Shown: positions 885 to 53,925 of the stretch, piece by piece
Position numbering within the stretch: position 1 is the first letter of the stretch
Layout of the letters: every line of letters starts with the position of its first letter
Assembly: GCA_029933125.1 (NCBI GenBank)
Contig: JAOZOU010000009.1
Coordinates: 1-64,000 of the forward strand
Direction of reading: 5' to 3'
Length of the DNA stretch: 64,000 nt
Source of the DNA: a bacterium
GTDB lineage: Bacteria; Arandabacterota; Arandabacteria; Arandabacterales; Arandabacteraceae
Program-made: the position numbers and the translations under genes
Notes under the pieces: model-generated
What the model saw: only the letters and a program-made list of their open reading frames with translations
Told to the model about the DNA's origin: nothing
Databases searched by the model: none

Positions 885-916
885 GGGCGACACCATAGTT
901 AATCGTGGGCACTTGC
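885..916 (+). repeat. Imperfect direct repeat, copy A, upstream of the beta-helix gene
   Basis: The sequence shares the pattern GGG(C)GACA-CA-AGTTAAT--TGGGCACT-GC with 3096-3126 (about 26 of 31 positions equal). The two copies bracket the secreted beta-helix gene. Function is unknown; it could be a degenerate mobile palindromic repeat. Confidence 0.55.
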
Positions 917-929
917 TTTGGAGATTTGG

Positions 930-959
930 TTGACAAGCGCCCAAGAAGTGTGGTAACAT
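930..959 (+). promoter_or_regulatory. Promoter of the beta-helix protein gene (TTGACA-N18-TAACAT)
   Basis: A perfect -35 box TTGACA at 930-935 is followed by 18 bases and TAACAT at 954-959. Transcription would start near 966, about 70 bases before the ATG at 1037. Confidence 0.6.
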
Positions 960-1036
960 CGGCTACGGTAGGGGCTGTGGGGCTCACATTCCTATCACGC
1001 AGACACAAGTTGTCTGCCTTTCAAAGGAGATTGCCA

Positions 1037-3055
1037 ATGCGAAGATCTCTTGTTCTGTGTATCGTATTGTTGATTGTTGTTAATGCACAGGTGGTAATGG
1101 CTCGAACATGGCAGATATTCCCTGATGGATCTGGGGATGCTCCGACGATTCAGGCAGGACTTGATTCGGCTGCCACTGGAGACACAGTTCTCGTCATGCC
1201 CGGGACTTACTACGAGAATCTCTTCTGGCCATTTCGCAATGGAATAGCGCTTGTCGGAGGTGGGATGGAGAATACAATCGTCGTTGGAGATGGAGTCGAG
1301 ACTGTGCTTTATATGGTGGGCACCACCTCATCTGGAGGTGGCCCTGGTGAGGCAAGTCTTGCATTTGCTTCGGAGCACCGGAAGATTTCCGATGCTCTTC
1401 TGCTTGCCGTGCCCCTTGACTCGAGCACGGTGGTGAAGGGGCTTACTTTTCGTGGGGGAGGAGATGCGGGTGTGGTGCTCTATGGTGCATCCCCCATCGT
1501 TGAGTTCTGCAGGGTCGATAGCACCGACCCGGGACCTGGGATTCATGCAATGTCGGGATCATGGGTACAGATTCGCCAATGCGAAGTTGTCTCAAACAAG
1601 GGTAGTGGAATCAGGCTTACCGAATGCGGCACACTCCTTACGATTAGCGGTAGCACCATAACCGCAAACTCAGCAGCTGCCGATGGCGGCGGAATCTCCT
1701 GCGACTACTCCTCACCAACAATCACCAGCAATACCATAACCGCAAACTCAGCATCGGACTATGGCGGCGGAATCGCCTGCGACCACTCCTCGCCAACAAT
1801 CACTAGCAATACCATAACCGGAAACTCAGCTAACGATGGCGGCGGAATCTCCTGCTACTCCTCCTCACCAATAATCACCAGCAATACCATAATCGGAAAC
1901 TCAGCTAACTATGGCGGCGGAATCTCCTGCTACTACTACTCCTCGCCAATAATCTCCAGCAATGCCATAACCACAAACTCAGCTAACTACTATGGCGGCG
2001 GAATCTACTGCTACTACTCCTCGCCATCAATCACTAGCAATCCCATAACCGCAAACTCAGCTAACTATGGCGGCGGAATCTCCTGCGGGCACTACTCCTC
2101 GCCCACAATCACCACGAACTCCATCATCCGTAATATTGCCACATCCAAAGGTGGAGCCTTCTCTTGCACTTTCAACAGCAATCCTTCGGTTTCCCTCAAT
2201 ACGATAACCGAGAATGCTGCTCCGCTTGGAGATGCAATCTATACCAAGGATTCAAAGCCAACAATCTCCCACTCCAACATAGCATTCAATGGTTGGGGCA
2301 TGCACAACGCTAGCTACGGCACTGTCCCTGTGGCTCAGAATAACTGGTGGAGGCACCCATCAGGTCCCTGGCACCGGGGGGGCAATCCAGGTGGGCAGGG
2401 AGATTCTCTTTCCACCTATGCCTGGGACTTTGTCCCATGGCTTGCGGATGCAGACACAACTGCACCACCAATTCCGCCTCAGGATCTTGTAGTTGTGGGA
2501 GTTTGGCATGTTAGCGTTACGCTTTCCTGGCAACCTGTTCCCCTCGCTGACCTTGCGGGCTATAAGGTCTATTTTGACACCGATACGACCGAATGGTATG
2601 GTGAGAGTGTGGATGTTGGAAATGTGACTGAGTTCACATTGGAGGACCTTGAGAGTGACACAACTTACTATTTTGCGGTCACCTGTTATGACAGTAGTGG
2701 CAATGAGAGTTGGTATTCGGCTCAGGTAAGCGCAACGACAGGGGATGTAAGTGGGGTGCCCAAGGGTGATAGGTTTGCCGAGTTTCGTATCACATCTCTC
2801 AAGCCTAATCCATTCAACTCACAAGTCGTGTTGGAATATCTCTTGCCTGACGCAAGGCGTGCCCGTGTTACCGTGCATGATGTTCGGGGAAGACAGATCA
2901 GGATGCTGAGAGACGGTGTTGAGCCGGCTGGTTTGGGCACATCCTTCTGGGATGGAAAGGACTCATTCGGAATGGTCTGCTCACCGGGGATTTACTACAT
3001 TCGCATTGAGTCAGGCAAGGAGGTGGCAACCTCCAAGGTAGTTCTGATACGATAG
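1037..3055 (+). CDS. Secreted parallel beta-helix protein with FnIII and FlgD-like C-terminal domain
   Basis: A 672-residue predicted extracellular protein. The start at 1037 is chosen because an AAAGGAG site lies 8 bases upstream and the protein then opens with a signal peptide (MRRSLVLCIVLLIVV..MA). A pectate-lyase-like right-handed beta-helix follows, first a DUF1565-like opening segment and then about seven copies of a GGGI-C-SSPTI-N-I--NSA rung repeat (roughly residues 200-380). A fibronectin type III-like domain comes next (residues about 475-570, starting near PPIPPQDL), and a C-terminal FlgD-like/T9SS-like domain (LKPNPFNSQV ... VRGRQI). Such C-termini mark secreted or surface-anchored proteins in FCB-type bacteria. 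No enzyme active site is recognised, so a polysaccharide-binding or adhesive role is only a guess. The frame is also open upstream to 905, but that part contains the promoter. Confidence 0.85.
   Translation: MRRSLVLCIVLLIVVNAQVVMARTWQIFPDGSGDAPTIQAGLDSAATGDTVLVMPGTYYENLFWPFRNGIALVGGGMENTIVVGDGVETVLYMVGTTSSGGGPGEASLAFASEHRKISDALLLAVPLDSSTVVKGLTFRGGGDAGVVLYGASPIVEFCRVDSTDPGPGIHAMSGSWVQIRQCEVVSNKGSGIRLTECGTLLTISGSTITANSAAADGGGISCDYSSPTITSNTITANSASDYGGGIACDHSSPTITSNTITGNSANDGGGISCYSSSPIITSNTIIGNSANYGGGISCYYYSSPIISSNAITTNSANYYGGGIYCYYSSPSITSNPITANSANYGGGISCGHYSSPTITTNSIIRNIATSKGGAFSCTFNSNPSVSLNTITENAAPLGDAIYTKDSKPTISHSNIAFNGWGMHNASYGTVPVAQNNWWRHPSGPWHRGGNPGGQGDSLSTYAWDFVPWLADADTTAPPIPPQDLVVVGVWHVSVTLSWQPVPLADLAGYKVYFDTDTTEWYGESVDVGNVTEFTLEDLESDTTYYFAVTCYDSSGNESWYSAQVSATTGDVSGVPKGDRFAEFRITSLKPNPFNSQVVLEYLLPDARRARVTVHDVRGRQIRMLRDGVEPAGLGTSFWDGKDSFGMVCSPGIYYIRIESGKEVATSKVVLIR
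1640..2140 (+). repeat. Coding tandem repeats of the beta-helix rungs
   Basis: Units of about 70-80 bases recur with little divergence. Each contains a GGCGGCGGAATC core, a TACTCCTC(A/G)CC segment and an ATCACCAGCAATACCATAACC segment (given here in pieces). The high DNA identity implies recent unit duplication or ongoing homogenisation, and unit number probably varies between strains. Confidence 0.8.
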
Positions 3056-20436: not shown

Positions 20437-20576
20437 GGGGTCGGAGCTAAAAATCGGCAAATCCCCCCAATTGGGGTCGGAGCTAAAAATCTGCATTCCA
20501 GCTTCTTTGGCACGGTCTGTGCAATTGCAAGTTAGGTGCCAGCCACGCCTTCGTGCACGTTTTTAGCTCCGACCCC
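20437..20576. repeat. Composite palindromic repeat, cluster 1 (two direct copies and one inverted copy)
   Basis: The 17-mer GGGGTCGGAGCTAAAAA occurs at 20437-20453 and 20473-20489 (period 36), and its exact inverse complement at 20560-20576. Between the direct copies lies the perfect palindrome CCCCAATTGGGG. The last direct copy and the inverted copy could pair over 17 bases around a 70-base loop that starts and ends near TGCA. The element fills the gap between the stop of the aldo/keto reductase gene and the start of rqcH. The arrangement resembles REP/BIME elements moved by RAYT transposases (inference). No transposase gene is nearby. Confidence 0.85.
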
Positions 20577-20603
20577 GGAGGCCGGGTGTGGTATGATGGA
20601 GGT

Positions 20604-22304
20604 ATGGCGATTGGGCTGGATTCGTTTGGCGTAACCTTTCTCGCAAGAGACCTTAAGCAAGCAATAGTCGACCTTGAAATTGGCGGCGTTCTGCTTGCTG
20701 GCGATAGGCTGCTGACACTAAACCTCAGTGGACGATCCCGACTCGACCTACGCATCCTTCTCGATCCAACCTTACCACTGGCTTGTGCTGGTCCAGCCTC
20801 CAAGCGCAACACCAAACACGAAGACCCCCCTCATGTGCAGAGGTTTGAAGAGCACCTCTTGGGAACAACCATCGTCGATGTCTCCCAGATAGACCTTGAT
20901 CGCATTCTGCTACTTACAGTTGAAACCGAAAGGGCGAGACTGCGGCTCTATGTCGAGCTCATTCCTCCATTCCCCAACGTGTTCTTGACCGACACTAACG
21001 ATATACTCATAGAGCCTTTGTTTAAGACTGGAATGCGGACGCGGAGGCGAGCGCTTTCAAGAGGTAAGCCCTATGTCGTCCCTGAGCCCACCGCCAAGAT
21101 TCATCCGAGTGACGCTGACGACACCTTGCTCGAAAAGATTGGCTCAAACGCTGACCCCGAGATTCTGAGCAAGCAAATAGTCGGCATAAGCCCCTTTGTG
21201 TCTCGTGAGATAGTTACTCGCAGCAAGGCATCGAGTCTCGGTCGGGCTTTGAAGGAGTTGCTTTCATCCTATAGGTCTGCCTCGATTGAGCCGTGTATCT
21301 TCGAGACTGTACCTGAGCTCAGTCCCAACCCACCGCATCTTGGGATAGCCTGGTTTAGACCAAGGCTTGATGGCGTAAGCAACGTAAGACGAGTCGGCTC
21401 AATGAATGAAGCCACGTGCCGGCTGCTCGAGCACTACCTCGAAACTACCCAGCTTGAACGCCAGCGAGCACATCTTGCAAGGCTTATAGGTCGAGAGATC
21501 AAAAGGCTCGAACACAAACTCAGAGAGATCCCACCGAGAGAGGCTGAGCTGGCAAAGGCTGATTCATATCGCAAGCTCGGAGAACTCCTCGTCGCTAACC
21601 TCAATAGGGTCAAGAAGGGTGACGCCAAGATAAGTGTGATTGACCTCTATGATCCGGATCAGAAGGCAGTTGACATTCCGCTTGAGCCAGCCTTGAGCCC
21701 CCAGGAAAATGTCGAACTCTATTTCAAGAAGGCGAGAAAGGCAAGGCGACGGGCTGAGATGGCTGACATGAGGCGAACCGAGATAACCAAGCGCATCACC
21801 CAACTTGGCCACCTGCTCGATGCGCTCAAGCAAGCCAGTATTTCAGAGCAACATCTCCAGGGTATCGCCTCCAGGGTCGAGCGCAAAAAGCACGGAGTGA
21901 AGCAGGAAGCAAAGGATATCGATGCCAGAGCCTTGAGCCTTGGGATTCGCCCTCGCCGCTATGTCGTAAGTGGCAGCTGGACGGTACTTGTCGGAAGATC
22001 TGCCAAGGAAAATGACATCCTCACCCATAAGTATGCTCGGCCCTCAGACCTTTTCTTCCATGCTCGCCAGGCTCAAGGCTCACATGTGATTCTTAAAAAG
22101 GGTAAGACCAAGACCGAGGTCTCAAAAGAGGCAATCCTTGAGGCTGCTGCAATCGCTGCCTACTACAGCAAGGCTCGCACCTCAAAGCATGTGCCGGTCT
22201 CCTATACTGAGAAACGCTATGTCAAGAAGGTGAGAAAAGGTCCACCCGGACTCGTCACCCTCCTCAGAGAAAAGGTCGTCTTCGTCGATCCCACCCTCCC
22301 CTGA
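20604..22304 (+). CDS. rqcH: RqcH/NFACT-family ribosome quality control protein
   Basis: A 566-residue NFACT protein (RqcH, formerly fibronectin-binding protein A). RqcH binds stalled 50S-peptidyl-tRNA complexes and adds C-terminal alanine tails that mark the peptide for degradation. NFACT-N comes first, the central coiled coil starts around residue 290 (LEHYLETTQLERQRAHLARL), and NFACT-R is near residue 460 (ENDILTHKYARPSDLFFHAR, GSHVILKKGK). ATG at 20604 is preferred because GGAGG precedes it; the longer frame runs through the repeat. It ends 10 bases before the convergent propeller gene. Confidence 0.92.
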   Translation: MAIGLDSFGVTFLARDLKQAIVDLEIGGVLLAGDRLLTLNLSGRSRLDLRILLDPTLPLACAGPASKRNTKHEDPPHVQRFEEHLLGTTIVDVSQIDLDRILLLTVETERARLRLYVELIPPFPNVFLTDTNDILIEPLFKTGMRTRRRALSRGKPYVVPEPTAKIHPSDADDTLLEKIGSNADPEILSKQIVGISPFVSREIVTRSKASSLGRALKELLSSYRSASIEPCIFETVPELSPNPPHLGIAWFRPRLDGVSNVRRVGSMNEATCRLLEHYLETTQLERQRAHLARLIGREIKRLEHKLREIPPREAELAKADSYRKLGELLVANLNRVKKGDAKISVIDLYDPDQKAVDIPLEPALSPQENVELYFKKARKARRRAEMADMRRTEITKRITQLGHLLDALKQASISEQHLQGIASRVERKKHGVKQEAKDIDARALSLGIRPRRYVVSGSWTVLVGRSAKENDILTHKYARPSDLFFHARQAQGSHVILKKGKTKTEVSKEAILEAAAIAAYYSKARTSKHVPVSYTEKRYVKKVRKGPPGLVTLLREKVVFVDPTLP

Positions 22305-22314
22305 GCCAACTGCA

Positions 22315-25300
22315 TCAGCGCATAAGAACCACCTTAGCAGTCGCCGACTGCCTGCCAGATGAGATTCTTACAAAATAGATACCAGCCGAGACGGCTCTCT
22401 CATTCCTTGACATACCGCTCCAGACCAAGGAGTGCATACCAGGTGATAGATGCCCTGCCTCGCTCTCCCACACCAGCCTACCTGCAACGTCATAAACAGA
22501 GACCCGTACATCACCAAAGGTCGGAATTGTAAAAGATATCTGGAAATTCTCGTGGCTCGGGTTGGGTACAATTTTGGCGATGCCAAAGGCGAGGTGCTGG
22601 CCCCCACCTTGAGAAACACCCGCTATGTCAACATCTCCCTCCCACCGCCGTGCATATATCTCAGGATTACCATCCCTCTCATCCCGCCACACAACGGCTA
22701 TCTTGCCTAAGGCATCGGCAGCCACAGAAGGCAAAGCACAAGAGCCGCTCTCGGATGACAGCCTCGCCTCCCTTGACCAAATCGAAGTGTACGACTTGTA
22801 GTAGATTGCCTCAGCCTCGTCATAGGTGTCCTCCCAGACCAAATGAAAGCGGCCCCTTCCATCACCACAGATATTGGGCGTCGTGCCAGTACCAAAAATT
22901 TCACCCAGGTCAGTCCACGACCCGCCTTCGTAAAGCATCCCCCGTATGGATGTATCACTCCCATCTTGCTCCTCCCACACCACCATTACCCTGCCACCGT
23001 CGTCGCAGCCAACCGATGGACGCGTCGAGAGACCCGGAGTCGCTACCAGCCTAGTAGAACTGCTCCACACCGAACCATCCCAGACCTTGTAGTAAATCTC
23101 ACTATTGCCATCACGTGTATCTTCCCAGACCACGTAGACATTGCCAAGGCTGTCAGCTGCCCCAGCCGGATAGCGTGACACTGCCCCATCGCTGGTGAGC
23201 CTTTCTTCAGTCCACCCTAAACCATCCCATCTAACGCAGTATATCTCCCAGTTGCCATCACGACTGTCCTGGAAGAATATGAATGGCTCATCACCCGCAC
23301 TCACTGCCAACGAAGGATAGTCTGACACACCACTATTGCTGGTCAGTCTTCGATTTGCCTCCCAGATTAAGCCATCATAGTGCTTATAGTATATCTCCCA
23401 GTTGCCATCACGACTGTCCTTCCAGCACAAGTGGAGCTCGTCACCCACCCCACCACAAATTGAAGGGAGCTGGGATGAAGCCGCATCATAAGTCAGCCGC
23501 GTCTCCGGTAGCCAGCTCACTCCATTCCACTTGCGGTAGTAAATCTCATAATTGCCATCACGATTGTCATACCAGACAACATGCACGTGACCACTTGCCT
23601 CCCTTACAACACACTTACTGTTGTTCCACGAAGTTGTCGATGAGTAAGTATCGAAGCTTACGCGCTCTTCTTCACCCCAAGGTGTGTCAATGATGAGAAT
23701 GGCGTCAGCGAGGAACGCCTCCTGCAGGTCAGAATCGGAATTCTTAAGCCAGACCTGCCAGTAGCCCGGCTCTGCCCCGCAGAGATCAAAATCACATTTG
23801 ATGTAAGAGTCCGAAAGCCTTGTCACATTCTGTGCAAAAATCGGTTCCTCACCCACCCGCTCGAGCCAGACTGAGGGATTGCCAGCAAAACCGGTCCCTG
23901 TTAGAACGGCATTTACAGGGAAGACGTTGCCAGCTTCCGTTGGGGAAAACCTCGCTATAGCTGCACGTGTCTCACTAGCTGACCAATGCTTATAGTATAT
24001 CTCACTGTTGCCGCCGCCTTGATCATGGCACCAGACGACGTGCACATTCCCGACCGCATCAGTATCCAGGCGACCGGCTTCATCGCGGGTCGAATTATAT
24101 GTCAACCGCTCATCCGGCCACCATCTCACGCCGTCGTACCGCTTGTAATATATCTCATAGTTACCATCACGGCCATCTTGCCACACCACATGCACATTAC
24201 CACTTCCATCAGTCGCTACTGACGGAGCCTCAGAACTGCCTGAAGCATTCGTCAGTCGCTCATCTGGCCCCCAACTCACACCGTCATACCGCTTGTAATA
24301 AATCTCATAGTTACCATCACGGCCATCTTGCCACACCACATGCACATTACCACTTCCATCAGTCGCTACTGATGGATGCCAGGAGTCGCCTGAAGCATCA
24401 GTCAAACGCTCATCTGCTCCCCAACTCACACCATCATAAATTTTATGGTATATCTCCCAGTTACCGTCACGATAATCTTGCCACACAACATGGATGTTCC
24501 CACTAGTGTCCACGGTCACCTCAGGCATTCGAGATTCGCCTGAAGCAACAGTCAATCGCTCATCCGGCCCCCAACTTGCACCATCATAAACTTTGTGGTA
24601 TATCTCCCAGTTACCATCACGGCTCTCTTCCCATACAACGTGCTGATTGCCATCGCTATCCACGGCAACCGCAGCCCACTCAGAATTGCCAGGATCGTTC
24701 GTCAACCGCTCATCCGGCCCCCAACTTACACCATCATAAACTTTGTGGTATATCTCCCAGTTGCCGTCGCGATAATCCTTCCAGAAAACGTGTAAGTTTC
24801 CGCCGAGGTCTCTTAGTAGCCGTGGATGGAACGAGCTCCCCGAAGCATTAGTTAAGCGTTCATCTGGCCCCCAGGTCACGCCATCATAGCGCTTATAGTA
24901 TATCTCTCCATTCCCATCTCGCTCATCCCACCACACAACATGGAGACAGACCCCATCGACGAGTACCCGAGGAGATTGGGAACTGTCATTAGCATAGGTA
25001 AGCTGCTCTTCAGGTAGCCACTCCCCAGCTGGCATAACATAGAAACCGAAGGGGAGCGTGTCTGGCTGTCCATCTGGATTCTTGACAATAACATCCCAGT
25101 AGCCAGGGGCAGCGTTCTCGAGATCTGCGGTACAGGTTAGCCTGTCAGAACTCTCAACGCGGATGTTATGACACACGATCCGGGGTTCACCAGGCTTTTC
25201 AAGCCAGACAGAATCAGGAAAGAAAAAGCCAGAACCCGATAGATTTGTGATGCGCACTAATTCATGGCTGTAGCCTTCATCGGGTTCAATCGAGTTAATC

Positions 25301-26472
25301 TGCGGCTTCTCAAGTGTGCCGTTATACCATTCCTTCCAGTATAGCTCCCAGCCGCCATCACGGTTGTCATACCACGCAACATGCACGTTCCCACTTTCAT
25401 CCGTCACTACTGATGGATACCAGGAGTCGCCCGAAGCAACAGTCAAACGCTCATCCGGTCCCCAACTCGCCCCATCATACCGCTTATAATAAATCTCATA
25501 GTTACCATCACGATTGTCATACCACACCACATGCACGTTACCGCCGGTGTCCGTTCCTACAGAAGGGCTATATGAGTCTCCTGAGGCATTTGTCAACCGC
25601 TCATCTGGTCCCCAGCTCATACCATCATACCGCTTGTAGTATATCTCATAGTTGCCATCACGATTGTCATGCCACACAACATGCACATTACCACTTCCAT
25701 CAGTCGCCACTGATGGATACCGAGAGTAGCCCGAAGCAACTGTCAATCGCTCATCAGAACCCCAACTCATACCATCATACCGCTTGTAATAAATCTCATA
25801 GTCGCCATCACGATTGTCATGCCACACAACATGCACATTACCACTTCCATCAGTCGCTACTGATGGATACCGAGAGTAGCCCGAAGCAACTGTCAATCGC
25901 TCATCAGAACCCCAACTCACACCATCATACCGCTTATAGTATATCTCTGAGTCGCCATCCCGATGATCCCACCACACCACATGTACATTCCCGCTCATAT
26001 CGACTGCGACCGAGGGATCCTGGGAGAGCCCAGCTGAGTTCGTCAACCGCTCATCTGCCCCCCAACTAACACCGTCATATCGCTTATAGTAAATCTCCCA
26101 GTCGCCATCACGATAGTCCTCCCACACGATATGAACATTACCACTTACGTCCGCAGCCATCCACGCACCCCTAGACTGTCCACCTGCATTCGTCAAGCGT
26201 TCAACAGGGCTCCAACCCGTCCCATCGTAACGCTTGTAGTAAATCTCATCGCTGCCATCGCGAGTGTCCTCCCACACCACATGCACGTTACCAAACAAGT
26301 CCGTGGTCACACACCTACCCATTTCAGCCGAAACCTGGGAAGTGGGTGGATCAGTCAGACGCCAGTCAAAGAACCAGCCAGCAGCTGCCCGACTTGCAAA
26401 GCACAGACCCAGTGCTATCAAGATCGCAAAAGACCAACCGAACGCTTCGCTTGTGGGTCTATCACGACGCAT
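22315..26472 (-). CDS. Giant secreted protein with three 7-bladed propellers and FlgD-like C-terminus
   Basis: About 1385 residues. A signal peptide (FAILIALGLCFASRAAAGW) is followed by 21 repeats of about 50 residues with consensus GNVHVVWxDxRDGNxEIYYK, then YDGVSWGPDERLT. The repeats fall in three blocks of exactly seven. Blocks are separated by two TIG/IPT-like domains of about 105 residues (SIEPDEGYSHELVRITNLSG... and RFSPTEAGNVFPVNAVLTGT...). The end is a FlgD/T9SS-like domain (AKIVPNPSHENFQISFTIP ... VYDVAGRLVW). This predicts three sialidase-like 7-bladed beta-propellers on a string, secreted or on the surface. No catalytic residues are recognised. The start is placed at 26472, 7 bases after AAGGGGG. 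Confidence 0.88.
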   Translation of the reverse strand: MRRDRPTSEAFGWSFAILIALGLCFASRAAAGWFFDWRLTDPPTSQVSAEMGRCVTTDLFGNVHVVWEDTRDGSDEIYYKRYDGTGWSPVERLTNAGGQSRGAWMAADVSGNVHIVWEDYRDGDWEIYYKRYDGVSWGADERLTNSAGLSQDPSVAVDMSGNVHVVWWDHRDGDSEIYYKRYDGVSWGSDERLTVASGYSRYPSVATDGSGNVHVVWHDNRDGDYEIYYKRYDGMSWGSDERLTVASGYSRYPSVATDGSGNVHVVWHDNRDGNYEIYYKRYDGMSWGPDERLTNASGDSYSPSVGTDTGGNVHVVWYDNRDGNYEIYYKRYDGASWGPDERLTVASGDSWYPSVVTDESGNVHVAWYDNRDGGWELYWKEWYNGTLEKPQINSIEPDEGYSHELVRITNLSGSGFFFPDSVWLEKPGEPRIVCHNIRVESSDRLTCTADLENAAPGYWDVIVKNPDGQPDTLPFGFYVMPAGEWLPEEQLTYANDSSQSPRVLVDGVCLHVVWWDERDGNGEIYYKRYDGVTWGPDERLTNASGSSFHPRLLRDLGGNLHVFWKDYRDGNWEIYHKVYDGVSWGPDERLTNDPGNSEWAAVAVDSDGNQHVVWEESRDGNWEIYHKVYDGASWGPDERLTVASGESRMPEVTVDTSGNIHVVWQDYRDGNWEIYHKIYDGVSWGADERLTDASGDSWHPSVATDGSGNVHVVWQDGRDGNYEIYYKRYDGVSWGPDERLTNASGSSEAPSVATDGSGNVHVVWQDGRDGNYEIYYKRYDGVRWWPDERLTYNSTRDEAGRLDTDAVGNVHVVWCHDQGGGNSEIYYKHWSASETRAAIARFSPTEAGNVFPVNAVLTGTGFAGNPSVWLERVGEEPIFAQNVTRLSDSYIKCDFDLCGAEPGYWQVWLKNSDSDLQEAFLADAILIIDTPWGEEERVSFDTYSSTTSWNNSKCVVREASGHVHVVWYDNRDGNYEIYYRKWNGVSWLPETRLTYDAASSQLPSICGGVGDELHLCWKDSRDGNWEIYYKHYDGLIWEANRRLTSNSGVSDYPSLAVSAGDEPFIFFQDSRDGNWEIYCVRWDGLGWTEERLTSDGAVSRYPAGAADSLGNVYVVWEDTRDGNSEIYYKVWDGSVWSSSTRLVATPGLSTRPSVGCDDGGRVMVVWEEQDGSDTSIRGMLYEGGSWTDLGEIFGTGTTPNICGDGRGRFHLVWEDTYDEAEAIYYKSYTSIWSREARLSSESGSCALPSVAADALGKIAVVWRDERDGNPEIYARRWEGDVDIAGVSQGGGQHLAFGIAKIVPNPSHENFQISFTIPTFGDVRVSVYDVAGRLVWESEAGHLSPGMHSLVWSGMSRNERAVSAGIYFVRISSGRQSATAKVVLMR
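24100..26300 (-). repeat. About 150-base coding tandem repeats of propeller blades
   Basis: Blade-coding units recur every 150 bases or so. The pairs around 25640-25790/25790-25940 and 24130-24280/24280-24430 are nearly identical, which indicates recent unit duplication or gene conversion within the propeller gene. Confidence 0.8.
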
Positions 26473-26612
26473 AGCCATTCCCCCTTTTGAAAGCCTTTGA
26501 AGCATTCTACTCAAAAACATAGCGGCCAACCCGCAGCCACGAACAAAAACCCGGAGAGACGCTCACAATGTCACAGCAGCCCAGCCTGCGCCAACATTGG
26601 AACCAATTAGCC

Positions 26613-26883: not shown

Positions 26884-29346
26884 ATGGCGCGCCTTGACTG
26901 TCCCCGGTTGGTGCTGCCACTTGCGGTTCTTATTTTCACATTGGTGTCCCCTCCAACGCCTGTGCTGGGTGATTGGCTCTTTAGCACGAGACAGGATTTT
27001 GCGGTGGGTAGCAGACCTTCACAAGCTGCCCTCCATGACTTCAATAATGATTTCATACTCGACGCTGTCGTCGCCAACAGTGAGAGTGACAACGTATCCA
27101 TCCTCATTGGAAGAGGTGATGGGACATTTACCAGAGCGGAGGACGTAGACGTGGGGGATTACCCTGCCTCCATTTTGGCAACCGATGTTGACCTTGATCA
27201 GGATTGCGACCTTGTCGTAGCCAACACGTGGAGTAATACCATCTCGGTCCTCCTTGGTCATGGCGACGGAACATTCACCCCATCAGCGGAGATTCTTGTT
27301 GGTGGAGGACCTTGTTTCGTCATCGGTGGCGACTTTAACTGCGACTGGATCCCTGACTTTGCTGTTGCCAACATGTACAGTGATGATATCTCCGTCGTGT
27401 TAGGCAATGGGGATGGAACATTTGATGCCCCGATACGCTTTCCTGTTGGCGGGTACCCGAACTCAATGGTTTCGGGCATGCTGAATGCAGACGGGTTTTC
27501 CGACATCGCTGTAACATGCTATTACGACAACAAAGTCTCAATCCTCTTCGGAAACGGTGATGGCACATTCACAAAGGCAGCCGACCATCCTGTTGACCAC
27601 CCAAACGAAGTCTCAACTGGAGACTTTGATTCGGACGGCGATCTTGATCTTGTAGTGGTCAGAGTGTCTTCGACAAACCAATCGGTCCTCGTCTTCCTAA
27701 ATGACGGCAATGGAACATTTCAGCCACCGGTTGCATATGAGGCTTACAACTACGGGATCTCAGTTGCTGTATCAGATGTTAATCTTGACGGACATCAGGA
27801 CTTGGCAGTCGGTGATTTCAACGAGTCATTCTACATTCTCCTGGGAAACGGGGATGGCACTTTCCAGTCGTCGATTTACCACGATGCTGGGAACTCCGTC
27901 GTCTGCATCCGAGTGGGAGACCTGGACAGAGACGGGCTACCGGATATCCTCGCTGTCAATAGGTATGAGGATACGGTCTCAAGCATCATAGGAAACGGAG
28001 ACGGCACGTTCAAAGTCGCACCGTGGTACATGTGTGATTCCGGACTCTGCTCCGTGGCACTAGGCTATCTCAACGCCGATTCATTTCTCGACATCGTTAC
28101 TGGTAATGCTGACGCCCGCAATGTTTCAGTGCTCATTGCAAACGGTGATGCCACCTTTATGCCTGCTGTCAGCTACTTGATTGGGCTCGGTCTGAGCTGG
28201 GTAGTCATCGACGATTTTGGCGGCGACGCAGTTATGGATCTGGCTGTCTCCAGTGATATGCGCTATGTCGCTGTACTTATGGGAAACGGTGATGGCACCT
28301 TCCAGGATCCAGTGACCTACTGGGTAAAGGGAGGTGCTGCGCATCTCGCCTCCGGCGATGTGGATGGCGACGGCGATGCAGATCTAGCTGTCGCAATCAA
28401 AGACAGTGGCGAGGTAGCGCTCCTACTTAACAACGGTGATGGCACCTTCGCTCCGGCAGTTGGCTACGCGGCTGATGGTGGCACCAATTGTGTCTGCCTC
28501 GATGACTTTGATTGTGACGGTGATCTAGATATCGCTACGGCCAATTGCTATGGGGATAATGTCTCTATCCTGCTGGGCAATGGGGACGGGACCTTCGCTG
28601 CAGCCGTGAACTACCCTGCATCCTTTGGTCCTTGCAGCGTGGTCTCAAACTATCTCGATGGAGATTCTCTTCCAGACCTTGCGGTCGTAAACGAATATAG
28701 CGACAATGTCTCAATACTACTCGGCAACGGTGACGGGACGTTTGACCTGGCCCGAAACTACCCTGTAGCCAACTCTCCTCTCTCACTTGCTACAGGAGAC
28801 TTCAATCGTGACTGCGTACCAGATCTTCTGGTCGTGCATCAGTTCCACTACTTTGTCTCTGTCCTTCTCGGAAACAGAGACGGTACTCTCAGGGAGCCAG
28901 TACTGTATGGCGCTCATATTTTCCCGCGGGCTGCAGCAGTCGGTGACCTAAACGCCGATGGGTCGGATGATGCTGTTGTTGCCAATCAGGGCTGCCTCAG
29001 CGTTTCGGTCCTTCTGGGGGAAATTTGCGCTGGTGTACCTATCGATGGAGACAGGAAACAAGCAGACTCAATTTGCCAGCTGAGGGTCGCGCCAAATCCA
29101 TGCACTGGCAGTGCCGCGATTTGGTTCGACATTCCGTCAGAGCAATCTCTAAGAAGTGTCGCTGTCTATGATGTTTCAGGTGCTCTGGTCCGGCAATGGG
29201 TGTTGGAAGCGACGATAAGTAATGGAAACTGTGTTATCTGGGACTGCAGAGACAATTACGGAAGGCGTGTCGCACCGGGCGTTTACTTCGCAAGTATCCA
29301 AAGCGAAGGCGTGTTGGCCACACGCAAGCTCATAGTACTTCGCTAG
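26884..29346 (+). CDS. Secreted FG-GAP/VCBS repeat protein with FlgD-like C-terminus
   Basis: An 820-residue protein with a signal peptide (LVLPLAVLIFTLVSPPTPVLG) and 14 FG-GAP-type repeats of about 47 residues, each with a calcium-loop-like DxNxDxxxD and a VSILLGNGDGTF strand. Fourteen repeats fit two 7-bladed propellers. It ends with a FlgD/T9SS-like domain (RVAPNPCTGSAAIWFDIP ... YDVSGALVRQW). Such proteins are exported and often bind ligands or matrix; the ligand is unknown. GGGGGTGA precedes the ATG. It is divergent from the three-propeller gene, with which it shares the type of C-terminal domain. Confidence 0.88.
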   Translation: MARLDCPRLVLPLAVLIFTLVSPPTPVLGDWLFSTRQDFAVGSRPSQAALHDFNNDFILDAVVANSESDNVSILIGRGDGTFTRAEDVDVGDYPASILATDVDLDQDCDLVVANTWSNTISVLLGHGDGTFTPSAEILVGGGPCFVIGGDFNCDWIPDFAVANMYSDDISVVLGNGDGTFDAPIRFPVGGYPNSMVSGMLNADGFSDIAVTCYYDNKVSILFGNGDGTFTKAADHPVDHPNEVSTGDFDSDGDLDLVVVRVSSTNQSVLVFLNDGNGTFQPPVAYEAYNYGISVAVSDVNLDGHQDLAVGDFNESFYILLGNGDGTFQSSIYHDAGNSVVCIRVGDLDRDGLPDILAVNRYEDTVSSIIGNGDGTFKVAPWYMCDSGLCSVALGYLNADSFLDIVTGNADARNVSVLIANGDATFMPAVSYLIGLGLSWVVIDDFGGDAVMDLAVSSDMRYVAVLMGNGDGTFQDPVTYWVKGGAAHLASGDVDGDGDADLAVAIKDSGEVALLLNNGDGTFAPAVGYAADGGTNCVCLDDFDCDGDLDIATANCYGDNVSILLGNGDGTFAAAVNYPASFGPCSVVSNYLDGDSLPDLAVVNEYSDNVSILLGNGDGTFDLARNYPVANSPLSLATGDFNRDCVPDLLVVHQFHYFVSVLLGNRDGTLREPVLYGAHIFPRAAAVGDLNADGSDDAVVANQGCLSVSVLLGEICAGVPIDGDRKQADSICQLRVAPNPCTGSAAIWFDIPSEQSLRSVAVYDVSGALVRQWVLEATISNGNCVIWDCRDNYGRRVAPGVYFASIQSEGVLATRKLIVLR

Positions 29347-29597: not shown

Positions 29598-30839
29598 CTA
29601 GTCCGCCGGGTTCACGAGGCGCCCCATGAAGAGGATGGTGCCGGTTGTGTTCTCCTTTATAAGGAAAATGAAAGGATGATCGGCTCGAAATGTCTTGGCT
29701 GGCGTAGGTGCCATCGCGAGCGCCATGGTAACCCCTGTTGCCGCAGCTGCCTCTGTCCCACGCTCATTCACATCGACATATGCTTTGTGCACAACAGCTG
29801 AGATGAAAAGATCACGCTTGCCTGTCATACCTGAGAAATCCGCTCTTGTTGGCTCGAATGCATCCTTCATGCCAAGTTCTTCAAGAGCTCCATCAACCCG
29901 AAACTTAGTCTCGAGCTTAAAACGCGGAAGGCTTATGTCCACCCGCTCAGGCGCAAGACGCCCAAGCCAGGCGGAAAGGGAATCAGGGGCAAGCCCCGCC
30001 TCGAGCCCTTTGAGCCCCTCAACCTTCCTTGGAAGCAGAATCACCATTGAAAGATCTCCACCCTTGTAGGGGAGCTCAAGTGCCTGAAAGTCATCTCTCT
30101 CAAAATAGTGAAAGTGTCCTTCCTGATGCATCATGGGAATGGTGACCGTCGTTGTGTCATCTACATGGAAGGGCTCATCCGAGGTGCGCTTCTCCTTGAA
30201 AGGATGCTCCCAGTTGCCCAGAAAATAGATGGCGTTGGTAAGCACAAGCCTTACGTCGGGGGTAAGAAGCCCCCTGCCTATGAGCTCCTGTATCTTGCCC
30301 TCAGTCTTCTCAGACACCCACTCATTTATGCGCTCCCTTGCACCAGCGGCATCATTGGCAAAATCAACCTGAAAAAGGCCTGCCCCATAGTATTTTTTGG
30401 TTAAACCTATGAACTCAGCCTCAAACTCATAGCCCTCCTGTGCCCAAAGTGCATTCGCCACACTGAGCTTGAAGTTGCCTTTCCTACCAAGGGCATTGAG
30501 TGAATCTGTAAGCTCCCCAAATGCCTTGTGGATACCCTCACCACCTACCCCACCAAGCCCACCAAAATGCAATGCCCGAGCCATCTCCTCAGCAGTCTTA
30601 CCCCGCGCTCCTGCATATGTCATCGCAAGCGCACTTGAGATGCTGTATGGGGAAAAGAATAGATTTCCTTCCCCAAGTTGCTGGTAAAGATCAAGCGCAA
30701 AAGCATTGTTTCTTGCCGCAAGTGTGTCCATCGTAACCTCTTGTGTTGGCTTTGCCTGGTCGCTTCCACAGCTAGATGCTCCCATCAGCGACATTCCGAT
30801 AAGCATTACCGCTATGAATCGCCAATCTCGCAGTCCCAT
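29598..30839 (-). CDS. Serpin (serine protease inhibitor), probable lipoprotein
   Basis: A 413-residue serpin. It begins with a signal peptide ending in a lipobox-like MGASSC at about residue 24, so it is probably attached to a membrane. Serpin-fold segments are NLFFSPYSISSALAMTYAGA, LTNAIYFLGNWEHPF, the hinge NERGTEAAAATGVTMA and the end FRADHPFIFLIKEN..GRLVNP. By counting from the hinge, the P1 region is small/hydrophobic (ALAMAPTP), which suggests elastase- or subtilisin-like targets (inference). The start at 30839 follows AAGGAGGAG. The longer frame is ruled out by the promoter at 30871-30899. Confidence 0.94.
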   Translation of the reverse strand: MGLRDWRFIAVMLIGMSLMGASSCGSDQAKPTQEVTMDTLAARNNAFALDLYQQLGEGNLFFSPYSISSALAMTYAGARGKTAEEMARALHFGGLGGVGGEGIHKAFGELTDSLNALGRKGNFKLSVANALWAQEGYEFEAEFIGLTKKYYGAGLFQVDFANDAAGARERINEWVSEKTEGKIQELIGRGLLTPDVRLVLTNAIYFLGNWEHPFKEKRTSDEPFHVDDTTTVTIPMMHQEGHFHYFERDDFQALELPYKGGDLSMVILLPRKVEGLKGLEAGLAPDSLSAWLGRLAPERVDISLPRFKLETKFRVDGALEELGMKDAFEPTRADFSGMTGKRDLFISAVVHKAYVDVNERGTEAAAATGVTMALAMAPTPAKTFRADHPFIFLIKENTTGTILFMGRLVNPAD

Positions 30840-30870
30840 CCTTCTCCTCCTTCCTATGTACCCAACCCCC

Positions 30871-30899
30871 ATATTATGATAACCACTCTCCAAGGTCAA
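30871..30899 (-). promoter_or_regulatory. Promoter of the serpin gene (TTGACC-N17-TAATAT)
   Basis: TTGACC (30899-30894), 17 bases and TAATAT (30876-30871) face leftward. The start would be near 30864, leaving a 25-base leader that carries AAGGAGGAG. Confidence 0.75.
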
Positions 30900-31058
30900 A
30901 ACCAAACCTTCGGGGGAGATTCCCTCGAAGACCACATACCAGACGCGTGAAATGCATCGCTCGAGGGTATGCTGAGATCTCATGTGTGGTTCCTTCAGCC
31001 CAGATGGAACCTTCTACGCCAATTTGAGAATTTTAGAGTGGAGAGAAGGAGGGTGAGA

Positions 31059-32347: not shown

Positions 32348-33553
32348 ATGAGGAAAAGATCGCTTCTTTCGACAATTCTCTTGATCACGATAGGTGGCTC
32401 TGGGCTATTGTTAGCCCCCCTTGCCCGAGCTGCCGCTGGCTGGACTCCTGCAATCCGGCTGACTAATAGCGATGGCTCCCTAACGCTTTCGGGTCCCCCC
32501 GGACTTAAGCAGATAGCTGCAGGCCCTGACGGGAGGATACATGTAGTTTGGGCTGATAACCGAGATGGGATGTATCACATCTATTACAAGTGCTTTGATG
32601 GAAAAGCTTGGAGCAAAGACGAATGCATAAGCCAGGGCTATGGCTTAGACCCCAGTATCTCGCTCCTTCCTCACGGTCGGATACTGGTAGCGTGGTACTG
32701 GTTCGGCTACGACACCTTTGCTCGGATCTTCGACGGGTCAAGATGGCAGAACGAGACCAAGCTCAGCGATTGCACACCGATCAATAGCACCTGGCCTTCT
32801 ACGGTGACCGACGCTGCAGGACGTGCCCACGCATTCTGGCCAGTCTCAAGCTTCTGTGAGGCGTTCCTAATGCATCGTGTCTATGATGGCCAAAGGTGGC
32901 TTCCCTGTGACACGATACCAGGCACCACAGGTAACCCCATGCTGACGGCTGCTGCGTGTGATAGCAAGGGAAATCTTCATCTCGTGTGGACGGATGGAAG
33001 AGATGGCAACTTTGAAATCTACTACACGACGTATGATGGCTCGCGGTGGGGTGCTTTTCAAAGACTCACGAGTGACCCAGCAGCATCAGAGCTTCCGGAT
33101 GTTGCAATCTCCTCAAAGGATGTCATCTATGTGGTTTGGCAGGACTCTCGTACAGGAGTCCCTGAGGTCTATCTTAAGACATTCAACGGCAAATGGTCTC
33201 CTGATCAGAGACTTTCAGCAGACGACGGCAGACTATCGGGCAATCCCAAGATAGCTATAGATTCAATGGACAGGGTACACATCGTTTGGGGAGAGCAAAG
33301 GCATGAGAAGATCAAGTTCCATGACATCTATTACCGCAGGTCGCGTCCCAGGGGTAAGCTATGGTCGCCCCCTGTAAGACTGACAAGTGATGCAGCAATC
33401 CCGAAATACTACTCCCTCTGTGTTGACTCTGCTGGTAACGCCTATGTGGTTTGGATGGATTTCCGCAATTTCAGGTGGGATATCTATTTCAAAACTCAGT
33501 GTAAATCCAACGACCCTGCCTTCTGGACAAGGGGGCTCACCCAGGCCAATTAA
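32348..33553 (+). CDS. Secreted single 7-bladed propeller protein
   Basis: A 401-residue protein with a signal peptide (LLSTILLITIGGSGLLLAPLARA) and seven blades of the same family as the giant propeller protein (for example GRIHVVWADNRDGMYHIYYK, GNLHLVWTDGRDGNFEIYYT, GNAYVVWMDFRNFRWDIYFK). It has neither a TIG domain nor a FlgD-like C-terminal domain, so it may be periplasmic or released. It has its own promoter and is convergent with the CHAT gene 27 bases away. No enzymatic motif is recognised. Confidence 0.85.
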   Translation: MRKRSLLSTILLITIGGSGLLLAPLARAAAGWTPAIRLTNSDGSLTLSGPPGLKQIAAGPDGRIHVVWADNRDGMYHIYYKCFDGKAWSKDECISQGYGLDPSISLLPHGRILVAWYWFGYDTFARIFDGSRWQNETKLSDCTPINSTWPSTVTDAAGRAHAFWPVSSFCEAFLMHRVYDGQRWLPCDTIPGTTGNPMLTAAACDSKGNLHLVWTDGRDGNFEIYYTTYDGSRWGAFQRLTSDPAASELPDVAISSKDVIYVVWQDSRTGVPEVYLKTFNGKWSPDQRLSADDGRLSGNPKIAIDSMDRVHIVWGEQRHEKIKFHDIYYRRSRPRGKLWSPPVRLTSDAAIPKYYSLCVDSAGNAYVVWMDFRNFRWDIYFKTQCKSNDPAFWTRGLTQAN

Positions 33554-33580: not shown

Positions 33581-36500
33581 CTACCTCCAGTCACCAGAGG
33601 AAACAAAAGCAGCCCATCGTACCGGATGATCTATCATTCCATGCGAGCGCAGTTCTTTGAGCACTTTGAGCTCAACCGCGTTAAGGGTGAATGCAATATT
33701 CTCTGGGGGCGTGCTGTAGATGGCACTACAAACTTCGGCAGCAAGTCTGTCAGACACTGGCCACATTGCACCGATTATTGTGCGCGCCCCAGCCAGCCGA
33801 AAGGCACGCACGGGGCCATAAACGCCTTCGGCATCTTCAAGCTCGCCAGTTGCGGTTTCGCACCCCGAAAGCACCACGAGATCGGTTCCTCTGAGATCAA
33901 GGGCAAGGATCTCCTCAGAGGTAAGTGTGCCATCATCAATCATTGGGTTCTCAAAGCCTCTACCATGGAGATTTGCTCGAGCCAGAAAAAGCCCTGATAA
34001 GACCAGGGGATTGAGACTATCAGGGTTGATACTTACCCTATCTGCTGAAGGGTAGATCTTCCCCGGCGAGCAAGATGCCAGGTGATAACCATGGGTTGCA
34101 AGGTGAAGCACGCGCTTCCCAGGAGCATCAGCTTTTACCCTTTCCTCAGTTGCGTCTTTGCCGACATAGATATACGCGGGCTCACCTGTGACCTCGCGCC
34201 ACCTATGAGCTACAGCTTCTACCTCACGGCGGCTCTCAGGGAGAGGTGGAACAACAATGTTGAACCGTTCCTTGCAGGGAATCGATGTCTGACCATGCTC
34301 AAGTAAGTCAAGCTCAGGCTTGAGGGCACCCCTCTCAGGTAAGGCATCGTAGTCGGGGGCACCAATTGCCAGAAGCCCCTTACCCCGCTTAGGATTTTTC
34401 CCAAGCGCAAGGAGGTCGCGAGCAGCTGCGATGTAGTGTACGGGATAATGTTCGATAAGATACTTGCCATCACCTGCTATCAAGCCTGCAAAGGAAATGC
34501 GCGAAATCTCAGCATCAGAGCAAATGATCACAAGATCCGAACCCTCGAGGTGACCTTCAATCGGCTCAACAAGGATCTCATAGAGCCTTCTTCCAAGCCT
34601 TGTGTAGTATTCCATATCCTCAAGTGTGGGACCTGACCTGGAATCAGCTAACTTCCTCATGTGGTGGCAATAAAGGCGGACAGCAAAGTCGATGTCAGCA
34701 GCATCGCCCAGCTGTACAATACGCACCTCGGAATCACTGGTTAGCACGAGCGCAAGGTATCTGAAAAAGTAGCCGTTAGGCTCAACCCAGTACTGATACT
34801 TGAAATACTCAACAACTGTAGTTCTCATAGGAAATCTTCTCAGGGCACTGAGCACCTTGGCTACACTGGTGTCAAGTACCTGCGCTGCGTCGGCATGATC
34901 AGCTATCAAACTGGCAAGTCTTCGCTCAAGGCGCTCCTTTCGCTTTCTGAGATTTTTGAGCATTGTCTCTAAGTCTTTGCTGCTGGGGATCTCAGAAGTG
35001 TAGAGCACCGAGATTTGCTGGTGAATGAGGCTAAGGGAATCCACAACCGCAGTTGCATAATCTGTCGTTCCACGTAAGGCGTGTCTTTGAGCAAGGAGAT
35101 CAGTGACACCGCCTTTGGACTGCAATACGGCATCTGCAACCTCGAGCGTGGCATGCTCTTCCCTTTCGGGGAGATCGAAGTAAGTAGTAAGTAGCCTATC
35201 CACACAGGCGAGCTGAACCTCTCGATACTTAAGAGCCTCTCTTTCCGGCATTAGCAGAATCTGATCCGCTACGGTTTGCCATCCGAGCTCGAGTGTCTCC
35301 AGGGCAGCGTCCCAGGCCGCCCGGACGTCACCTCTCATCCTATGAAATCTGCTGAGATCCAGGAGATTCATGGTTGCATCTGGACCAAGCGAACCGAGTG
35401 CTTTCTGCATAGCAATTGCCTTCTCATACATTGGCATTGCTTCACCATAGCGCCGCTCATCTCGATAGCAATTTGCGAGGGTCATCAAAATGGAAACAAT
35501 TGCCGGGCTCGCCGTCTCAGCCTCCGTCTCGCAGGAAGCTATTGCTGAAGCACACAGGCTTTCAGCCCTGCTATAGTCATGGATGTAGCGGTAGACAGTT
35601 GCAAGGGCTGCGATTGCCCGTAGGAGAGCGGGATGCTGAGGACTAAAGGGCTTATTTAAAATTGCAATAGCACGTTCCAGGTTGTCTATAGCCATTCTAA
35701 TGTACTTTGTGTGGTTATTGCTACGCAGCTCGTAGTTCAGGGATCCGAGCTCGGCAAGTACCATACCAATGCCTGGATGATTCGGTCCAAGACCTACCTC
35801 ACCTCTCCCGAGAGCATCCTTGAGCACAACATGTGCCTGATCAAACCGCTGGGATGCAACGAGCACTCTTGCAAAACCGAGCATTGCCTCAAGACGGTGG
35901 GTATTCATAGCAGGTGACGTGCGATCAAAAATGGCAAGAGCCTCTTCATAAAGCCTTTCAGCCTCGACAAGGTTGGCTTGACAATATCTGAGGCGTGCCA
36001 TATTGGTGATTGTTGAGGCAACGAAAGGGTGCCAGTAACCAAGGCTGATGCCGAGCAATCTTCTGGCCTCAAGCAAGTGGTATTCTGCCGAAAGATAATC
36101 CAGTTTGTAAGTATCTATCAACCCTTGCAGGTTCAGGGTATGCGCTAATGTAACACTGTCGGCCCTGTCCGATATCTCAAGAAGGAAGCGTGACTCATCA
36201 AGCCAATCTTGAGCCCTGGTATAGTAACCCTGGGCAACCGCGAGATGAGCAAGAGCGAGATCGATGTGTGCTTCCCAGCAAGGGTCGGGGTAGTTCTGAG
36301 AAAGATAGCGAGCCTGAGATAGATAGCCTTGCGCTTCAGCATAGTGTCCCAGCTCAGTTCCTATCTCACCAAGGTAGGTAAGAAGTGGCAGGGCCTGCTC
36401 GCGCAATTCCGAAGGGGGAGTTCGGGTGATTAATCGCTCCAGCTTCCCGTACAGGCTTGAAAGTTCTTCGTGACCACCATACTGGAGATAGAACGCAGCC

Positions 36501-36757
36501 AAGACTGCAATCTGTGAAGGGAGGGATTGAAATTCCCTTCCCTCACCAATCGACCTCAATGTCCTTGCTAGCTTGGCCTGGGCATCACGGTAACTTTCAT
36601 ACTTTAAGAGTCGAGTCGATCCGCATTGGGAATCTACAACAACAATCGGCAGGTAGCCCCCACCAACACTTGACGGAGACCCTCCAGCAAGCCTAATTAA
36701 CCCAAGAGTGCACACTGCTGCGAGGAGGACCTGATTGACTTTCGATGAATCCATTCC
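33581..36757 (-). CDS. CHAT-domain protein with TPR repeats, probably exported
   Basis: About 1058 residues. An N-terminal hydrophobic stretch (VLLAAVCTLGLIRLAGG) looks like a signal peptide. A long array of TPR-like helical repeats follows (for example AEAQGYLSQARYLSQ, AERLYEEALAIFD, YGEAMPMYEKAIAMQKAL). The C-terminal CHAT (caspase-HetF-associated) domain holds the likely catalytic His in HLATHGYHL and Cys in VVLSGCETATG. CHAT proteins are caspase-like proteases or scaffolds, some activated by partner proteins. ATG at 36757 is used because AGGGAGG and a promoter lie just upstream. The longer frame to 37210 runs antisense into the sigma gene. Divergent ECF sigma and anti-sigma genes suggest co-regulation. 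Confidence 0.88.
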   Translation of the reverse strand, partial: GMDSSKVNQVLLAAVCTLGLIRLAGGSPSSVGGGYLPIVVVDSQCGSTRLLKYESYRDAQAKLARTLRSIGEGREFQSLPSQIAVLAAFYLQYGGHEELSSLYGKLERLITRTPPSELREQALPLLTYLGEIGTELGHYAEAQGYLSQARYLSQNYPDPCWEAHIDLALAHLAVAQGYYTRAQDWLDESRFLLEISDRADSVTLAHTLNLQGLIDTYKLDYLSAEYHLLEARRLLGISLGYWHPFVASTITNMARLRYCQANLVEAERLYEEALAIFDRTSPAMNTHRLEAMLGFARVLVASQRFDQAHVVLKDALGRGEVGLGPNHPGIGMVLAELGSLNYELRSNNHTKYIRMAIDNLERAIAILNKPFSPQHPALLRAIAALATVYRYIHDYSRAESLCASAIASCETEAETASPAIVSILMTLANCYRDERRYGEAMPMYEKAIAMQKALGSLGPDATMNLLDLSRFHRMRGDVRAAWDAALETLELGWQTVADQILLMPEREALKYREVQLACVDRLLTTYFDLPEREEHATLEVADAVLQSKGGVTDLLAQRHALRGTTDYATAVVDSLSLIHQQISVLYTSEIPSSKDLETMLKNLRKRKERLERRLASLIADHADAAQVLDTSVAKVLSALRRFPMRTTVVEYFKYQYWVEPNGYFFRYLALVLTSDSEVRIVQLGDAADIDFAVRLYCHHMRKLADSRSGPTLEDMEYYTRLGRRLYEILVEPIEGHLEGSDLVIICSDAEISRISFAGLIAGDGKYLIEHYPVHYIAAARDLLALGKNPKRGKGLLAIGAPDYDALPERGALKPELDLLEHGQTSIPCKERFNIVVPPLPESRREVEAVAHRWREVTGEPAYIYVGKDATEERVKADAPGKRVLHLATHGYHLASCSPGKIYPSADRVSINPDSLNPLVLSGLFLARANLHGRGFENPMIDDGTLTSEEILALDLRGTDLVVLSGCETATGELEDAEGVYGPVRAFRLAGARTIIGAMWPVSDRLAAEVCSAIYSTPPENIAFTLNAVELKVLKELRSHGMIDHPVRWAAFVSSGDWR

Positions 36758-36782
36758 TCCCTGCCTTTGCTTTTCGAGAAAA

Positions 36783-36811
36783 CGCATACCATGCACTATT
36801 TGGGATGTCAA
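36783..36811 (-). promoter_or_regulatory. Promoter of the CHAT gene (TTGACA-N17-TATGCG, extended -10)
   Basis: A perfect TTGACA (36811-36806), 17 bases ending in TGG, and TATGCG (36788-36783) face leftward. The start would be near 36776, about 20 bases before the ATG at 36757. Confidence 0.6.
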
Positions 36812-36875
36812 GCCTGCCAACTCGGATGTGCCCGTCCCAACGCCATAAACAATATTGCACTCCATGCGATTAAGC

Positions 36876-36904
36876 TTGAAGATATGGCGTTCGTGAGGTA
36901 ACAT
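36876..36904 (+). promoter_or_regulatory. Promoter of the ECF sigma/anti-sigma genes (TTGAAG-N17-TAACAT)
   Basis: TTGAAG at 36876-36881, 17 bases, and TAACAT at 36899-36904. The start would be near 36911, followed by GGAGGG at 36955-36960. Autoregulation by the sigma factor is possible but cannot be judged from one site. Confidence 0.5.
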
Positions 36905-36967
36905 TTGCAGTAGCACACGGTTCCTGCTCGGATCTGCTACGAAAGAGAGCTGGCGGAGGGCAGACTC

Positions 36968-37510
36968 ATCGACTTCTCGCTCGAAGATAAGGACACCCGG
37001 GAAACCGTCAGGCAATGGATTCAGCCTGTGGTAAGAAGTCCAAGGTGGTATCAGCGCATCAAGCACGAAGAGCAGGATATTTACAATGAAGTTATGTTGA
37101 GATTCCTGATTGCATGTCAGAAAGGCCGCGTCGATACTGCAAGAGATCCCAGGCCTTATGTTCAGAAAATTGCCTTTCACGTCTGCGTTGACTGGATCAG
37201 GCGTAACCATCGAGAGGTCCCTTTCGACGACATCACCGAAGAGATTAGCAGGAAGCTTTTCAGGCGTGAGCCCAGTATTCTCGAAAAGCTCACACGTGAT
37301 GAAACGGTTGAGGTTCTAGTGGAGCTGATTGGAACCTTGCCTGAGAAATGCCGAAATATATTACGGATGACATTTTATGAAGAAAAATCAGAGAAGGCGA
37401 TTGCAGATGCTCTTGGTGTACCCGTTGGAACCGTAAAATCTAGAAAGTCGAGATGCCTCGACAAGCTCAGGCATCTCTTGAAAGGAAAAGACAATCAAGC
37501 TATGGATTAG
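36968..37510 (+). CDS. ECF-family RNA polymerase sigma factor, start codon uncertain
   Basis: About 180 residues. Region 2 is visible as DIYNEVMLRFLIACQ and VQKIAFHVCVDWIRRNHRE, and region 4 as LPEKCRNILRMTFYEEKSEK with the helix-turn-helix AIADALGVPVGTVKSRKSR. The only standard start in frame is GTG at 37028, but it has no ribosome-binding site and cuts into region 2. The frame stays open back to 36914 and encodes sigma-like residues (DFSLEDKDTRETVRQWIQPV). GGAGGG at 36955-36960 points to an ATC codon at 36968, so I place the start there tentatively. The gene is followed by an anti-sigma gene and is divergent from the CHAT gene. Confidence 0.8.
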   Translation: MDFSLEDKDTRETVRQWIQPVVRSPRWYQRIKHEEQDIYNEVMLRFLIACQKGRVDTARDPRPYVQKIAFHVCVDWIRRNHREVPFDDITEEISRKLFRREPSILEKLTRDETVEVLVELIGTLPEKCRNILRMTFYEEKSEKAIADALGVPVGTVKSRKSRCLDKLRHLLKGKDNQAMD

Positions 37511-53735: not shown

Positions 53736-53925
53736 GGGGTCGGAGCTAAAAACCTCCAAATCACCCATTTTGGGGTCGGAGCTAAAAAAACGCAAATCAC
53801 CCAAAATGGGGTCGGAGCTAAAAAAATGCAAATTGGCTGGAATTGCCTCTTCCACAAGGCCCATGGCTCCTTAACTCATTTACACACAAAGGGATACGCG
53901 TGTGCAGATTTTTAGCTCCGACCCC
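53736..53925. repeat. Composite palindromic repeat, cluster 2 (three direct copies and one inverted copy)
   Basis: GGGGTCGGAGCTAAAAA occurs at 53736-53752, 53772-53788 and 53808-53824 (period exactly 36), and its inverse complement at 53909-53925. Spacers share a CAAATCACCC pattern and end in CCC-ATTT-TGGG or CCC-AAAA-TGGG palindromes across the unit junctions. The left end abuts the stop codon of the sulfatase-fold gene. The right end supplies the last codons and the TAA stop of the DUF89 gene (53912-53914). Confidence 0.88.

Follow-up and report, generated by a model that had tools for sequence, protein, structure and literature searches.

The window, a 64,000-nucleotide stretch of contig JAOZOU010000009.1, carries a gene whose product strings together 21 beta-propeller blades in three blocks of seven, separated by two Ig-like spacers and followed by a C-terminal sorting domain (Table 1). 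Taken as one claim, this architecture, the predicted closure of each block into a ring and export by type IX secretion are highly probable in our judgement. The protein belongs to known families; it is a new example of a neat, recurring architecture, unusual but recognisable.

Table 1. Features of the three-propeller gene and of a single-propeller neighbour, in window coordinates.
Feature	Position	Strand	Basis
Whole gene, ATG at 26472 to stop	22315..26472	-	ORF listing
Signal peptide-like N-terminus (RRDR...FAILIALGLCFASRAAA)	26380..26472	-	read from sequence
Propeller 1: lone D strand, six full blades, seventh without D strand	25318..26376	-	profiles, model, CylK superposition
Spacer 1, Ig-like, likely TIG/IPT-type, 91 aa	25033..25305	-	homologous modules; strands in model
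Propeller 2, seven blades	23980..25023	-	profiles, both models, superpositions
Spacer 2, homologue of spacer 1	23692..23964	-	spacer alignment
Propeller 3, seven diverged blades	22636..23685	-	profiles, second model
Type IX secretion C-terminal sorting domain (Por_Secre_tail; overlaps FlgD_ig)	22318..22584	-	domain profiles
Neighbour gene, single propeller of the same blade type	32348..33553	+	blade profile; seven blades, two weak

The reading frame is open upstream to a TTG at 26529, from which it encodes 1404 amino acids to the stop at 22315; residue numbers of the window protein are TTG-based throughout (stop-to-stop frame). The ATG at 26472 (MRRDRPTS...) is the likely start of the gene, as GGGGGA lies before it and a signal-like N-terminus comes after.

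Blades were counted with profiles, because a strict motif search skips three of the 21 (629, NQHVVW; 1081, PFIFF; 1276, KIAVVW), all of which are in register. A profile derived from the blades themselves gave 21 matches at 48-98 bits, seven each at residues 80-415, 526-861 and 978-1309 (stop-to-stop numbering). The count was again 7/7/7 with a broader profile, iterated over 166 blades from the window protein and its relatives. Both profiles uphold the 7 + 7 + 7 hand count of the initial annotation, which had also suggested a blade-profile search, and no block deviates from seven. Motifs start (TTG numbering) at residues 82, 132, 182, 232, 282, 332 and 382 in propeller 1, at 529, 579, 629, 679, 729, 779 and 829 in propeller 2, and at 982, 1032, 1081, 1131, 1181, 1228 and 1276 in propeller 3. 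Blade 19 (start 1181) is degenerate in its second half, where the RDG..EIYY part is lost. At the DNA level, a tandem array with a 150-bp period is seen. The protein scores 131.1 bits against the NCBIfam beta-propeller repeat TIGR04275, far above chance (curated cut-off 85), and 69 bits against Pfam BNR_4 (cut-off 27).

The way in which the blocks begin and end bears on ring closure. Each blade consists of strands A (PSVATD), B (NVHVVW), C (EIYYKRYDG) and D (WGPDERLT). Every block opens with a lone D strand (DWRLT, WLPEEQLT and WGEEERVS) and stops after strand C of its seventh blade, where the D strand is absent. A lone D strand and a three-strand last blade are the 1+3 "Velcro" closure signature, which is evident here in the sequence itself; among the relatives, most complete blocks likewise end in a truncated blade. 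We modelled the protein with AlphaFold in two overlapping parts, from alignments of only 7 and 9 rows. Residues 48-865 (pLDDT 86.0) and 497-1404 (pLDDT 84.0) had pTM values of only 0.55 and 0.52, respectively, so the mutual placement of the propellers cannot be read from the models. In both models, triplets of A, B and C strands recur alongside short D strands, with seven such sets per block.

Solved seven-bladed propellers, among them that of CylK, superpose with propellers 1 and 2 along their whole length. In the first model, propeller 1 lies on CylK (7fh6) with Z 41.6 and 2.2 A over 341 residues; in the second, propeller 2 does so with Z 39.4 and 2.5 A over 342 residues. Propeller 2 also superposes on the Photorhabdus lectins PLL2/PLL4 (Z about 32, 2.2 A, about 300 residues), which belong to the seven-bladed PLL lectins (PMC6943638). 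A sequence search against solved structures, with the whole protein and the spacers as queries, yielded nothing useful. For propeller 3, modelled at pLDDT mostly 78-94, the blade count and the model confidence make a closed seven-bladed ring the best reading. Given the A-B-C sets in the models, the superpositions of propellers 1 and 2 and the 1+3 block ends, the predicted fold is best read as a string of three closed propellers, each of seven blades, with Ig-like spacers between them, as the initial annotation had proposed.

The two spacers (residues 409-499 and 856-946, each about 91 aa) separate the three blocks. They are 37% identical to each other, both align with ten modules from relatives, and Ig-like strands are modelled in them. 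Neither of the window's own spacers directly matched Pfam TIG (PF01833), while four of the 12 homologous modules did (best E 6.4e-4). The spacers are therefore likely to be of TIG type by way of their homologues, in line with the earlier TIG/IPT-like label.

The C-terminal domain, previously called FlgD-like, does match FlgD_ig, which explains that name, but type IX sorting domain is the more fitting term. It scores 37.5 against TIGR04183 (cut-off 23) and 31.4 against PF18962 (Por_Secre_tail; cut-off 27). The protein thus ends in a type A sorting domain, as type IX cargo does. The genome encodes SprA, PorV and PorU homologues, each above its own cut-off; there are several PorV-family genes, one of which, on C120, adjoins PorU. 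Dozens more proteins of the genome end in this sorting domain. The sorting domain and the secretion components together suggest that the window protein is very probably type IX cargo. Literature searches found no precedent for a type IX-secreted multi-propeller protein.

The same genome encodes a second 7+7+7 protein on C42 (L020, 1289-5539) and a 7+7 protein on C89 (L021, 207-3089). In the neighbouring single-propeller gene of the window (32348..33553), no sorting domain was found. Further 7+7 proteins occur in L052, L053 and L054 of the same family, and related sequences are present in all eight genomes that represent the phylum in the collection; the phyla of two further matches are small. 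Among delimited and well-scored blocks, 27 have seven blades, including some on contigs labelled Bacteroidetes, Aegiribacteria and Ignavibacteriae, and four have six (L055, where the ORF ends early, L056, L061 and L065). Weakly scored proteins were left out of this count. A further comparison adds four weaker blocks with seven blades, one with six and two with fewer detected. The four six-bladed blocks indicate that seven is preferred and not obligatory. Relatives carry one spacer between propellers (L020, L021, L052), two (L054) or three (both L053 proteins), so that spacer number varies while blades rarely depart from seven. The six-bladed protein of L065 (3600-5282), from another phylum, has six similar blades, and five more proteins of that genome have seven.

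Internal blade identity drops along the chain, from 69 to 62 to 35% in the window protein, from 78 to 69 to 48% in the 7+7+7 paralogue and from 57 to 39% in the two-propeller protein. Likeness by blade position extends across the last propellers of different proteins (excess 3.9 points, 0 of 2000 permutations) and across the first propellers of other species (excess 6.5 points, 0 of 2000 permutations). Middle propellers showed no positional correspondence with those of other species, and W1, W2, P1 and P2, whose blades are alike, retain only a weak positional trace among themselves (1.15 points, 69 of 2000 permutations). From this pattern of positional likeness across proteins, the propeller next to the sorting domain appears old and stable, while those upstream appear re-amplified or homogenised, though still with seven blades. 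We also considered, and rejected, the simple account that propellers 1 and 2 arose by duplication of a whole propeller; likeness at equal positions was a weak trace at most (W1-W2, p = 0.08; P1-P2, p = 0.49).

Within propeller 1, identity at fourfold sites is 0.46 against 0.26 expected, and blades 4 and 5 share 97% DNA identity across the 39 codons compared. Synonymous sites have already diverged, which limits how recent most of the amplification can be; much of the protein-level likeness of the blades therefore reflects purifying selection. Across 24 blades of W1, W2, P1 and P2, the scaffold is near invariant and variation concentrates in columns 2, 3, 10, 20, 22 and 28 (2.7-3.2 bits). Variable columns chosen in the window protein were chosen again in the paralogue (Spearman 0.71). 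Columns 2-3 fall in the D-A loop and columns 20, 22 and 28 around the B-C hairpin, all on one propeller face; column 10 lies on the opposite face. Among the closest disjoint pairs, dN/dS is 0.67-0.86 at five variable columns compared to 0.13-0.14 at other positions, and positive selection at the variable columns was not supported (Fisher p 0.78-0.99). Because dN/dS at these sites is near neutral, unconstrained surface loops account for them equally well.

We modestly favour a role as a multivalent putative binding protein, which would be displayed on the surface or secreted. A putative signal peptide would take the protein to the periplasm, and the type IX system, via the sorting domain, would carry it across the outer membrane, after which it would be kept on the surface or released. 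The first strand of each block would complete the last, three-stranded blade, so that each propeller could close on its own. The three propellers would then probably bind a glycan or protein as a multivalent array, with a scaffold fixed by purifying selection and a few residues per blade, mostly on the D-A loop and B-C hairpin face, free to vary.

A structural or surface-layer-like role, in which the propellers would be spacers or units of a lattice and would have no specific ligand, is the strongest alternative, though a rather unlikely one. It fits the near-neutral evolution of the variable sites and the naming of TIGR04275 for Methanosarcina (beta_prop_Msarc), and arrays of propellers and Ig-like domains are reportedly found in archaeal surface-layer proteins, in work ascribed to Jing and colleagues in 2002. 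However, the variable positions cluster by face, and three multi-propeller genes alongside many other tagged proteins in one genome suggest a varied surface set and not one lattice protein. Catalysis by one or more propellers, as in sialidases, polysaccharide lyases and CylK, which share the fold, seems improbable. The BNR_4 matches point towards it, and the top Foldseek and VIA matches include sialidases, bacterial glycoside hydrolases, ulvan and rhamnose-glucuronate lyases and CylK; yet sequence identity to the solved enzymes is 9-17%, the window protein contains no Asp-box (SxDxGxTW), strict or relaxed, and its blades are near copies, whereas unlike residues surround the centre of catalytic propellers. 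That the 21 blades instead make up solenoids that stay open, or rings with some other number of blades, or reflect misassembly of near-identical repeats, is very hard to credit despite the near-identity of blades 4 and 5 (an assembly risk) and the few six-bladed relatives, because spacers bound every block at seven, each block has the half-blade offset that closure requires, 7+7+7 recurs in the paralogue and seven in independent genomes, and propellers 1 and 2 as modelled superpose on closed rings of seven blades.

The putative binding array can be compared with several known systems. Proteins of TIGR04275 and Pfam BNR_4 share its blade family by curated cut-off; the window protein differs in its three delimited propellers, Ig-like spacers and type IX sorting domain. 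The LRP5/6 ectodomain likewise strings complete propellers together with small spacer domains, and LRP6 chains appear in the Foldseek list. LRP5/6 is an animal receptor with six-bladed YWTD propellers and EGF spacers; the likeness is of architecture only, and we claim no homology. The PLL/PHL lectins of Photorhabdus (PMC6943638) form a seven-bladed ring of repeated blades, like propeller 2, with which they were compared in fold, but they are single-propeller proteins with 15-18% identity to the window protein. The highly repetitive beta-propellers described by Pereira and Lupas (2022; PMC9218822) include WRAP, in which two seven-bladed rings stand in tandem. They share with the window protein single-blade amplification, high internal identity and tandem rings per chain; that set spans a continuum of blade numbers (PMC9218822), whereas here the rings are delimited by spacers and have seven blades each.

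Positive selection in the HNWD repeats of Podospora falls on two sites of the d-a loop and two of the b-c turn (PMC1805685). The WD-repeats of HNWD/HET-E thus vary at D-A loop and B-C turn residues on one face, in the same geometry as the window blades. They differ in serving intracellular fungal non-self recognition under positive selection (PMC1805685), whereas the sites in the window protein are neutral at most. It is conceivable, though doubtful, that this small lineage uses its multi-propeller proteins as a repertoire for recognition at the surface, and that they are secreted bacterial counterparts of HNWD. Blades would then be exchanged and homogenised within and between propellers, a few residues on one face would diversify and ring closure would enforce seven blades each time.

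These proteins offer a clean natural test of how beta-propellers hold their blade number, as one chain combines two propellers of alike blades with an older, diverged one, all seven-bladed. Fast convergence on a lineage's preferred blade count has been proposed (Pereira and Lupas, 2022; PMC9218822), and spacer-delimited strings allow such convergence to be measured ring by ring. They also show that a lineage which has received little study has a set of multi-propeller proteins with type IX tags.

Several other features of the window were observed. An NFACT (RqcH-like) gene (20553-22304, +) lies tail to tail with the propeller gene, and the divergent neighbour on its other side (26884-29346, +) encodes a propeller protein of 820 aa that has FG-GAP repeats and a type IX sorting domain, the latter weak. 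Further along are a serpin gene (29598-30983, -; E 6.5e-130), uncommon among bacteria, and a gene for a 1209-aa TPR-CHAT protein of caspase-like architecture (33581-37210, -). Near the start of the window, a protein with beta-helix, fibronectin III and sorting domains (905-3055, +) contains an internal 78-bp tandem repeat at 1655-2114, and a short tandem repeat of 36 bp in 2.7 copies is found at 53736-53833.
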